Source: Natronosalvus amylolyticus
GTDB lineage: Archaea; Halobacteriota; Halobacteria; Halobacteriales; Natrialbaceae
Length of the DNA stretch: 64,000 bases
Assembly: GCF_024298845.1 (NCBI RefSeq)
Contig: NZ_CP101156.1
Coordinates: forward strand, 1,426,001-1,490,000
Direction: 5' to 3'
Shown here: in pieces, positions 13,069-60,868 of the stretch
Numbering within the stretch: position 1 is the stretch's first letter
Layout: each line of letters begins with the position of its first letter
Notes under the pieces: generated by a model
What the model was told of the DNA's origin: nothing
Database searches by the model: none
The model's input: the letters and a program-made list of their open reading frames with translations, nothing else
Translations under genes and position numbers: made by a program

Positions 13069-13704
13069 TTATTCGACTTGTAGCATCTCCCGAACCATGT
13101 ACGGATGGCCGTATCCACAGTCATGGGTACAGACGAAATCGAACGTTCCGGTTTCGTCGGTGACGAACGACGTCTGGACAGGTTCGTCTGCGGTGCTCAA
13201 CACCATCATTTCGACGTCGTGTCCAGGTATGATCAGCTCGTGATCCAACATCGTTAACTCGTTCTCATCGTGGCCATCGTCATCGTGGCCATCGTCATCG
13301 TGGCCATTGTGAGCGTGGTCGTGAGCCTCTTCGTATACTTCCTCAATCGTAGCGTCCTCAGGTTCAGGAATAGTCCCATCCTCGACGTGCTGTTTCGTCC
13401 GTTCCAGCGCATCAAAGTCCTCGAGTATCGTTTCAACAGGCTCAGGTAGATCTCCGAACGCGTCGCTTGCATGATCGTTGATCGCGACGATGGTTAGCTC
13501 GGTTCCCTCTGGGACTTCGATTAACTCGTGTTCAGTTCCATCTTCGTCGAACGCAGCAAACCCCCAATGATAGGCGACGATGTAGTAGGTTTCGTCACCG
13601 GGCTCGTCACCGAGACCAACGTCATCTAAGCACCCAGCGATGAGTGCTGTGGCACCGATTCCCCCACTTTGTAAGACTGTCCGTCTGTTGTACAATTCGT
13701 TCAT
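13069..13704 (-). CDS. Stand-alone CuA-type cupredoxin with a His-rich insert, exported
   Basis: A 211-residue protein. The N-terminus has a Tat-like RRTVLQSGG motif, a hydrophobic stretch and a lipobox-like AGC (Cys about 24), so it is probably a membrane-anchored extracellular lipoprotein. The mature part resembles cytochrome oxidase subunit II: YHWGFAAF, LIEVPEGTELTIVAINDHASDAF, then near the C-terminus CTHDCGYGHPYM, which matches the CuA ligand pattern C-x3-C-x3-H-x2-M. The DH of NDHASDAF could supply the remaining histidine. Between these lies a 25-residue insert rich in His and Asp with repeated GHDDD. No oxidase subunit I is nearby. A role in electron transfer or copper handling is inferred. 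Confidence 0.8.
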   Translation of the reverse strand: MNELYNRRTVLQSGGIGATALIAGCLDDVGLGDEPGDETYYIVAYHWGFAAFDEDGTEHELIEVPEGTELTIVAINDHASDAFGDLPEPVETILEDFDALERTKQHVEDGTIPEPEDATIEEVYEEAHDHAHNGHDDDGHDDDGHDENELTMLDHELIIPGHDVEMMVLSTADEPVQTSFVTDETGTFDFVCTHDCGYGHPYMVREMLQVE

Positions 13705-55055: not shown

Positions 55056-56519
55056 ATGACGACGACGCTCGTCTTCGACGGCCGGATGGGGGCCAGTGGC
55101 GATATGCTCCTCGCCGCTCTCATCGATGCCGGTGCATCAGTGACGGCCCTCGAGCCAATCGAAGACGCACTCGAGGTGGAGTATCGGATCGGTTCAACGA
55201 CGAAGTGTGGGATTGCAGCAACGACGGTCGACGTGTTGTTGACCGGTGAGGAAACGGCATCTCACGGCCACGAACACGATCATCAACACGAACGCGATCA
55301 CAGCCACGGAGACAGTCACTCCCACAATCATCATGAGGATACCCATGACCACGGGCACGGCCACCACGGTGAAGACGATCATGACCACGGGCACGGCCAC
55401 CACGGTGAAGACGATCATGACCACGGGCACGGCCATCACGGTGAAGACGATCATGACCACGGGCACGGCCACCACGGTGAAGACGATCATGACCACGGGC
55501 ACGTCCACGCGGAAGGCCACGGCCCCCACCGGAGCTATCTCGAGGTCCGGGAAATCGTCGAGGGAATGGATCTCGAGTCCGACATCGAGTCCACGGCGAT
55601 CGCCATCTTCGAGCGTCTCGGGAAGGCCGAAGCCAGCGTCCACGGGACAGACCTCGAGTCGATTCACTTCCACGAGGTCGGGGCCGATGACGCCATCGCA
55701 GACATCGTCGGTGCCGTCGCCTTGCTCGCAGACCTCGCGGTCGAGCAGGTCGTGACGACACCGCTGTCGGTGGGCGGCGGTACCCGGTCGATGAGCCACG
55801 GCGAGTACCCCATTCCGGCACCGGCCGTTCTCGAGATCGTCGAACGGGCAGATTGGGCGATAGCAGGCGGCCCCGTCGAGACCGAACTGCTCACTCCGAC
55901 TGGAGCCGCGATTCTCGCCGAGGTGGCAGACGGGGTCGATACCCTCCCATCCATGCAGGTCGATAAAACGGGCTACGGTGCCGGCGGCTACGACCTCGAC
56001 CCGCACCCGAACGTGTTACGCGCGCTACTCGCATCCAGAGGGGGCGACCGCTCGCTCGAGCGAGACGATATCGCCGTCCTCGAGACGAACCTCGACGACG
56101 TGGCCCCCGAGGTGCTGGGTGGTCTCCACCAGAGGCTGGGTGAGGTTGGCGCTCGAGACGTCTCTATCGTCCCGCTGACGATGAAAAAGTCGCGACCGGG
56201 CCACCTGGTCAAAGTCATCTGTAAACCTGAAGACCGAGACGCGGTTGCCCGCCGACTCGCCGAAGAGACGGGGACGCTCGGTATCCGAGAAACCGGGGCC
56301 TCCCACCGCTGGATCGCGAACAGAGCGTTCGAGACGGTGAGCCTCGAGGTAGCTGGCGACACCTACGACGTGACAGTGAAAATCGGCAGCGACAACGATG
56401 GCGAGGTGTACGACGTGAGCGCCGAGTACGACGATGTCGCCGCCGTCGCAGCCGAGACGGGGGAACCTATTCGCTCGATTGCGCGACGGGCAGAAGCAGC
56501 TTACGACGACGAGTACTGA
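55056..56519 (+). CDS. larC: LarC-like nickel-pincer cofactor protein with tandem His-rich repeats
   Basis: A 487-residue LarC homologue; LarC inserts nickel into the pyridinium pincer cofactor of lactate racemase-type enzymes. The N-terminus LVFDGRMGASGDMLLAALID and IHFHEVGADDAIADIVGAVA, TPTGAAILAE, LETNLDDVAPEVLGG and MKKSRPGHLVKVI are typical. Residues 70-150 are an expanded His-rich segment with four 12-residue repeats H-D-H-G-H-G-H-H-G-E-D-D, encoded by near-perfect 36-bp DNA repeats. No larA, larB or larE is in the window. Ni storage or delivery by the repeat is inferred. Confidence 0.9.
   Translation: MTTTLVFDGRMGASGDMLLAALIDAGASVTALEPIEDALEVEYRIGSTTKCGIAATTVDVLLTGEETASHGHEHDHQHERDHSHGDSHSHNHHEDTHDHGHGHHGEDDHDHGHGHHGEDDHDHGHGHHGEDDHDHGHGHHGEDDHDHGHVHAEGHGPHRSYLEVREIVEGMDLESDIESTAIAIFERLGKAEASVHGTDLESIHFHEVGADDAIADIVGAVALLADLAVEQVVTTPLSVGGGTRSMSHGEYPIPAPAVLEIVERADWAIAGGPVETELLTPTGAAILAEVADGVDTLPSMQVDKTGYGAGGYDLDPHPNVLRALLASRGGDRSLERDDIAVLETNLDDVAPEVLGGLHQRLGEVGARDVSIVPLTMKKSRPGHLVKVICKPEDRDAVARRLAEETGTLGIRETGASHRWIANRAFETVSLEVAGDTYDVTVKIGSDNDGEVYDVSAEYDDVAAVAAETGEPIRSIARRAEAAYDDEY
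55344..55502 (+). repeat. 36-bp tandem repeats encoding the His-rich LarC segment
   Basis: Units at 55344, 55380, 55416 and 55452 plus a partial unit at 55488. They are nearly identical (one transition, CAC to CAT, in unit 3), so the expansion is recent or maintained by recombination. Each unit adds six to seven histidines. Confidence 0.9.
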
Positions 56520-60043: not shown

Positions 60044-60868
60044 ATGGTCTCGCTGCTCGAGGTCGTGTTGATCGCCACTGCCGCAGGTTGTGCCACCGGT
60101 ATTGGGGCATTGCCCACGTTTTATACCGACAGCGTGAGCCATCGCCTCTACGACGGCGCTGTTGGCTTTGCCGCCGGGGTCATGGTCGGTGCTGCCGTCT
60201 TCGCGCTGGTCGTTCCCGGACTCGAGATCGGGACTCCACTCGAGGTGGTCATCGGGGTCCTCGCCGGCGGCGGCTTCTTGCTCGTGGCGAACGCCACACT
60301 CCCGCACCTGCATCTGCGTTTTACAGACCGAGGAGAACAACTCGAGGGGACGGCAATTATGGCTGAAAACGGCGCTGACGAAACTCGATCGGCGCTCGAG
60401 ACCACAGCGATTCAAGATAACAAACGCCGAGCGCTACTGGTCGGCGGAGCCGTGACGATTCACAACGTCCCCGAGGGATTGGCTGTCGGCATCGCCTTTG
60501 CCAGCGGAGAGCCGGCCCTGGGATTCGCCATCGCCATCGCGATCACCGTCCAGAACATCCCCGATGGGTTCGCGATGGCCGTGCCGGCCGCTCGAGCGGG
60601 GGTTTCACCGCCCCGAACGGTCCTGTATACGACGCTCTCCGGTGGCGTTCCCGAACCGATTGCTGCTGCGGCCGGGTTCGCACTGGTCGCGGTGGTAACC
60701 GGTCTCTTTCCCGTCGCGGCCGGATTCGCCGCCGGGGCGATGATCGCCGTCGTCTTCCGAGAGATGATTCCCTCGAGTCACGGTCACGGCTACGTCGACA
60801 CGGCGACGGTGGCGTTCCTGCTCGGCTTTGCACTGATGCTCGTCGTCGACACTGTACTGGCCGTCTGA
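60044..60868 (+). CDS. ZIP family metal transporter
   Basis: A 274-residue transporter with about eight membrane helices, in the GufA-like subfamily of ZIP proteins that move Zn2+ or similar divalent ions. The metal-site motif VTIHNVPEGLAVGIAF is in helix 4 and TVQNIPDGFAMAVP in helix 5; the latter has Gln-Asn and Asp in place of the HNIPEG of many ZIPs, as in GufA members. It ends at the H2 copy d, which overlaps its stop codon region. Ion specificity is inferred. Confidence 0.9.
   Translation: MVSLLEVVLIATAAGCATGIGALPTFYTDSVSHRLYDGAVGFAAGVMVGAAVFALVVPGLEIGTPLEVVIGVLAGGGFLLVANATLPHLHLRFTDRGEQLEGTAIMAENGADETRSALETTAIQDNKRRALLVGGAVTIHNVPEGLAVGIAFASGEPALGFAIAIAITVQNIPDGFAMAVPAARAGVSPPRTVLYTTLSGGVPEPIAAAAGFALVAVVTGLFPVAAGFAAGAMIAVVFREMIPSSHGHGYVDTATVAFLLGFALMLVVDTVLAV

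Follow-up and report, generated by a model that had tools for sequence, protein, structure and literature searches.

The window, the 64,000-nucleotide stretch of Natronosalvus amylolyticus DNA analyzed here, carries an intact larC gene whose product has a long His-rich loop. Our reading, which we consider probable, is that this loop concentrates nickel at the enzyme, that its composition is under selection, and that the 36-bp tandem array within it is a recent duplication. Across haloarchaea, such a loop appears to be a general and fast-changing feature of LarC and probably holds nickel. More interesting than the repeat array, to our mind, is the orphan pathway to which the gene belongs, of a kind already reported for cyanobacteria. 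About one quarter of the sampled haloarchaea with a complete pathway have no detected cofactor user.

The window encodes a normal, intact LarC

Profile searches identify the open reading frame at 55056-56519 (+ strand, 487 residues) as larC, encoding the nickel pincer cofactor cyclometallase (nickel insertion protein), which bears out the identification made in a first-pass annotation of this DNA. The Pfam Ni_insertion family matches residues 5-475 (4.7e-128), and both constituent domains exceed their NCBIfam cut-offs: LarC1 (TIGR00299; residues 159-325, 55530-56030, +) with 198 bits for a cut-off of 90, and LarC2 (NF052512; residues 339-462, 56070-56441, +) with 119 bits for a cut-off of 50. 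By sequence, the protein matches the solved LarC 12bi and the LarC2 structure 6bwo, and the sequence and predicted fold of its LarC2 domain resemble 6bwo/6bwq. The AlphaFold model has a mean pLDDT of 81 and a pTM of 0.57. When used as the query in a fold search, it retrieved LarC2 structures and MK0293, with E values from 1e-10 or better to 3e-10 and TM-scores to the target of 0.59-0.66; full-length LarC was absent among these matches.

The core of the protein is conserved. We aligned 28 LarC proteins, including that of the window, from haloarchaea, other archaea, and bacteria (31 were tried, of which three were not extracted). Alignment A1 has 61 invariant columns, and the window LarC keeps all 69 near-invariant ones, defined as invariant or all-but-one. 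The first-pass annotation held that a different role must be assumed if larA-type genes are absent from the genome and LarC residues essential for nickel insertion are missing; as for the residues, every one of the near-invariant positions is present. Among LarC from named organisms, that of Natronosalvus hydrolyticus (L051) is the closest; it starts with the same N-terminus, MTTTLVFDGRMGASGDM, and agrees with the window protein at 82% over the best segment and 92.5% after the loop. Between the two, LarC is under purifying selection, with a dN/dS of 0.10 before the loop and 0.11 after it, although this is the highest of six window genes compared (0.015-0.096 for the other five). The window LarC shows no acceleration, with seven changes assigned to its lineage and 10 to that of N. 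hydrolyticus. Together, these findings show that the window gene is a normal, intact LarC with a conserved core and no decay.

A recent tandem array lies in a predicted disordered loop

A His/Asp/Glu-rich loop (residues 68-151; 55257-55508, +) leads from the N-terminal α/β part of the protein to the LarC1 core. It is predicted to be disordered, the AlphaFold model giving pLDDT values under 50 for residues 66-100 and 102-148. Much of it is encoded by a tandem array at 55344-55508 (+), in which TRF finds 4.6 copies of a 36-bp unit (period 36, 97% match) with a score of 316, the runner-up array in the 64 kb scoring 87. There are four full units, each encoding HDHGHGHHGEDD; unit 3 departs by one silent base from units 1, 2, and 4, which are identical. 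The four near-identical 12-residue repeats originally described are thus real, with zero to one base differences between units. The count of more than 25 His attributed to them was too high, since the four full units contribute 20 and the 55-residue array 24, the loop as a whole having 35-36 depending on the borders chosen. A degenerate 18-bp repeat at the start of the loop (55262-55308, +; 2.6 copies, 74% match by TRF) is presumably older. Elsewhere in the window, TRF also reports a 15-bp tandem repeat at 13265-13318 (3.6 copies, 92% match).

The LarC loop of N. hydrolyticus has no such array, its best TRF score being 55. Because this loop measures 55 residues versus 96 in the window LarC, a difference of 41 residues or about 3.4 units, the array is lineage-specific. 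Near-identical units and absence from N. hydrolyticus, which is a comparison between species, support the recent tandem expansion that had been proposed. The array is, as far as the sequences tell, one recent in-frame duplication event that followed the split from N. hydrolyticus, presumably through slippage or unequal exchange.

Haloarchaeal LarC loops appear to keep their composition while their sequence turns over

We then compared the loops of LarC proteins from 130 of the 168 haloarchaeal genomes with LarC. Most of these came from the upper end of a list ranked by similarity to the window LarC, and diverged and fragmented proteins are therefore under-represented. The first loop set was also partly biased, two of the six scan patterns used to collect LarC being His-rich themselves. 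Four of the 130 proteins failed the anchors (three fragments that are visibly His-rich and one that ends before the loop), and two of the 126 that passed were misparsed (L279 and L257), leaving 124. All 124 cleanly parsed loops are His-rich, with 28-121 residues and 6-42 His (median 17.5), and only one of them exceeds the window LarC in His number. Among haloarchaeal LarC, a long His-rich loop is consequently not unusual in kind, contrary to the first-pass annotation, and its statement that this loop is usually short does not apply to them. The statement does describe three other archaeal LarC (L083, L084, and L090), whose loops are five residues long and contain no His, as well as the solved LarC 12bi, which aligns without such an insert. 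Since these three archaeal proteins do without it, the LarC family as a whole does not require the loop. Two Bacillota LarC (L086 and L089) have denser loops, with 50-55% His versus 38% in the window.

Near-identical arrays (at least 2.5 copies with at least 90% match) are present in 15 of the 124 haloarchaeal loops. Their periods range from 18 to 60 bp, all multiples of 3, and both period and unit sequence vary from one loop to another. The top array score among the 15 belongs to the LarC of genome G188 (L211), with about 12 copies of a 24-bp unit (DNHDSQHV). On this comparison of sequences, the loop apparently changes its sequence yet retains its composition, and in-frame duplication has occurred in many lineages; the window array is a recent case of that general pattern. 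In the literature searched, a partial set with the main LarC papers outside its coverage, we found no description of repeat expansions in the LarC loop.

Could the array simply be neutral, a CAC/GAC-rich low-complexity stretch that slips within a tolerated loop, with a copy number of no consequence for metal or fitness? The diversity of units and periods in the 15 arrays fits this explanation, as does the spread of haloarchaeal loop lengths from 28 to 121 residues; three identical full copies in the window LarC likewise speak of recency rather than of selection. Pure drift would nevertheless let some loops lose their His, and none of the 124 has fewer than six, which argues for selection on composition and not on unit number. 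Neutrality may thus hold for the array but not for the loop, and as an account of the array we consider it possible, though distinctly less probable than not.

A plausible nickel-binding role for the loop

As for function, evidence comes from Haloferax volcanii. In the excerpted text of PMC12853182, its LarC, HVO_2381, is a native protein rich in His, termed a "putative nickel insertion protein," and it co-purifies on Ni-NTA. Strain KM03 was made without larC against this co-purification, and a KM03-derived strain shows robust growth on glucose plates (PMC12853182, same excerpt). As excerpted, that work shows affinity for immobilised nickel and the dispensability of larC in those conditions, rather than a physiological storage role. 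A built-in metal reservoir, as first suggested for the window protein, is nonetheless plausible because the loop is predicted to be disordered, its His are kept across haloarchaea, and the H. volcanii orthologue is reported to co-purify on Ni-NTA.

In the mechanism that we favor, the disordered, acidic, His-rich loop would be suspended where the N-terminal part meets the LarC1 core, serving as a flexible tether that most likely binds Ni(II) loosely. It could thereby concentrate nickel at the nickel-inserting enzyme, much as His-rich tracts may do in other nickel chaperones. Such a loop would lengthen, and presumably shrink, through in-frame tandem duplication, with selection probably maintaining its composition but neither its sequence nor a precise length.

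Tracts rich in His, Asp, and Glu bind a number of divalent metals, and the loop might instead serve another one (Zn, Co, or Cu), or it might buffer metals or pH in general or be a solubility tail of a halophilic protein. A gene for a ZIP-family transporter 3.5 kb downstream of larC would suit the former possibility, although it is more likely a chance neighbor. The host protein, moreover, is a nickel-inserting enzyme, and its orthologue is retained on Ni-NTA (PMC12853182, as excerpted), which makes these alternatives to a nickel-concentrating loop rather unlikely. The ZIP-family gene itself lies at 60044-60868 (+) of the window (Pfam Zip, 2.3e-18).

The source genome encodes LarB and LarE and has no detected client

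The source genome (G000; 4.2 Mb, 99.94% complete, five contigs) contains LarE (287 bits, cut-off 150) and LarB (230 bits, cut-off 175), both encoded elsewhere than in the window. From these genes, we infer that the organism synthesizes NPN. Family searches that read through stop codons and found matches in control genomes returned no match in the source genome for Lar_N, the group-22 isomerase, or DUF362. A single group-22 protein used as the query, in a search without a positive control, returned none either. DUF362, considered as an alternative clan member and client, was rejected on account of this absence. A LarA-superfamily client, in the form of Lar_N, group 22, or DUF362, is thus not detected in the source genome. 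The first-pass annotation called the client enzyme unknown, having seen no lar partners in the window. This turns out to be stronger than was claimed, as it extends to a whole genome without a Lar_N, group-22, or DUF362 match. Of the three genes for which it proposed a genome search, larB and larE are present; larA is absent, with no Lar_N match, so that the part of its reservation concerning larA-type genes does apply.

This absence sets the genome apart within its genus, since the seven other sampled genomes (of eight) all have a Lar_N match. Three of these matches are strong (LarA-like) and four weak. Two of the weak ones, in G214 and G216, were checked and are group 22; the rest are in G215 and G217, the latter below the cut-off. 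Genome G216, in which the weak Lar_N match is thus a group-22 protein, is the nearest to the source genome in LarC.

Next to larE in the source genome, and divergent from it, is a gene for a 261-residue protein that by eye is a His-rich membrane protein, with a long His-rich loop of its own (G000:C1:2204230-2205012; L049:6231-7013, +). It has no Pfam match, a longer frame of it scores 27.6 bits against NCBIfam RcnA (nickel/cobalt efflux; cut-off 195), and none of the other loci compared (1.5-kb flanks for most larE loci) has it. Such a protein would suit a supply of nickel, but with a weak RcnA score, an empty Pfam scan, and no recurrence, it was rejected as a nickel transporter.

Intact pathways without a detected client are common among haloarchaea

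How general this situation is was determined in a sample of 214 genomes of the order. LarC is present in 168, LarB in 162 (as kept; 161 above the curated cut-off), and LarE in 165, after exclusion of eight genomes with weak LarC (including G096, with partial matches at 4.6e-23), three with weak LarB, and all LarE matches above 1e-50. At these survey thresholds, 170 genomes have LarB or LarC, and 160 of them have both. Strong LarA is found in 57 genomes and group 22 in 86 (85 above the cut-off). The weak Lar_N matches of the survey are all in genomes with group 22 and therefore point to no further client class. In two genomes, a group-22 gene lies close to pathway genes, adjoining larB and larE in G135 (L183) and, in G155 (L182), lying 2.6 kb away from larE, which supports group 22 as a haloarchaeal NPN user.

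The complete set of larB, larC, and larE is found in 158 of the 214 genomes, and 39 of these 158, spread over nine families, have neither LarA nor group 22, whereas the other 119 have a client. Seen from the other side, 87 genomes are client-less, 39 with all three genes, 40 with none, and eight with a partial set; intact orphan pathways are therefore common. One genome, G179, appears to have a decaying NPN pathway: its larC (G179:C1:622598-623704) has an internal TGA, its LarB match is weak and partial, and neither LarE (at 1e-50) nor a client is matched. The number of His in the loop does not differ between orphan and other genomes (Mann-Whitney p = 0.83, on 126 rows including the two misparsed ones) and was rejected as a marker of orphan status. 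Within the partial literature searched, to which the main LarC papers are external, no count of haloarchaeal orphan larBCE was found.

Leftover pathway or client outside the LarA superfamily

The NPN pathway of the source genome may be a leftover, its group-22 or LarA client having been lost recently or residing on a replicon that the assembly lacks, an explanation to which we give an even chance. Decay of the NPN pathway can be seen elsewhere, in G179, and the Lar_N match in each of the seven other genus genomes makes a recent loss (or a missing replicon) the likelier explanation for the source genome. The low dN/dS of its LarC and the lack of acceleration argue against long decay, but not against recent loss, which would leave both unchanged. 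The survey as a whole fits a leftover less well, because so many client-less genomes keep all three genes and so few a partial set. Most client-less genomes retain either all of larBCE or none of it, and this allows for a client from outside the LarA superfamily. It is conceivable, if only as a tentative reading of genome content, that a sizeable group of haloarchaea, the source organism included, makes NPN for such an enzyme.

The neighborhoods of larB and larE offered no candidate for it. We surveyed 19 stretches in which the two genes are close, from 11 of the 39 orphan genomes and eight genomes with a client, together with the source genome's own larB and larE stretches, and found no client candidate near either gene. 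The recurring neighbors, named by eye, are housekeeping-like (phosphoglucomutase, Orc1/Cdc6, RpiA, TatC, MutS-like, and GIY-YIG) and were rejected as clients. Gene calling in this survey was crude; in the larE stretch of the source genome, an antisense frame was called instead of the His-rich membrane protein.

Comparison with known systems

HypB, UreE, and Hpn-like proteins are nickel chaperones in which an unstructured His-rich tract is carried by a nickel-handling protein. The window LarC resembles them in this respect. Its fold is unrelated to theirs, and its tract is an internal loop of an enzyme that inserts nickel into a nucleotide.

LarC itself is known as a CTP-dependent nickel-inserting cyclometallase from Lactiplantibacillus plantarum, Moorella thermoacetica, and Synechocystis (PMC11796402, in excerpt). 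The window protein shares with known LarC the LarC1 and LarC2 domains, the near-invariant residues, and a genome that also encodes LarB and LarE; it differs in carrying a long His-rich loop that contains a recent 36-bp array and in a genome without a LarA match. Among known LarC, H. volcanii HVO_2381 is likewise His-rich and reported to co-purify on Ni-NTA (PMC12853182, as excerpted). In that species, larBCE are listed as an NPN pathway with the qualifier "possibly" in the excerpted PMC8305020. The H. volcanii genome, a control in the group-22 search, has a match there, in contrast to the source genome.

LarC function, NPN synthesis, and the occurrence of larBCE without larA are already in print, as the excerpted PMC11796402 attests. 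According to that text, larBCE is found without larA in approximately 15% of genomes, many of them cyanobacterial, and its authors anticipate, for cyanobacteria, a client unlike LarA (PMC11796402). The same work gives a mass shift of about 450 Da for LarA carrying NPN and includes a Duet-based lar system in E. coli (PMC11796402). The genomes described here share with the cyanobacterial ones (same excerpt) a full set of NPN synthesis genes without LarA. They differ in being haloarchaeal, where the orphans lack both LarA and group 22 and make up 39 of 158 genomes with complete larBCE. These haloarchaeal orphans thus bear on the question already in print for cyanobacteria, namely which enzyme uses NPN when LarA is missing, and provide organisms in which to search for it.
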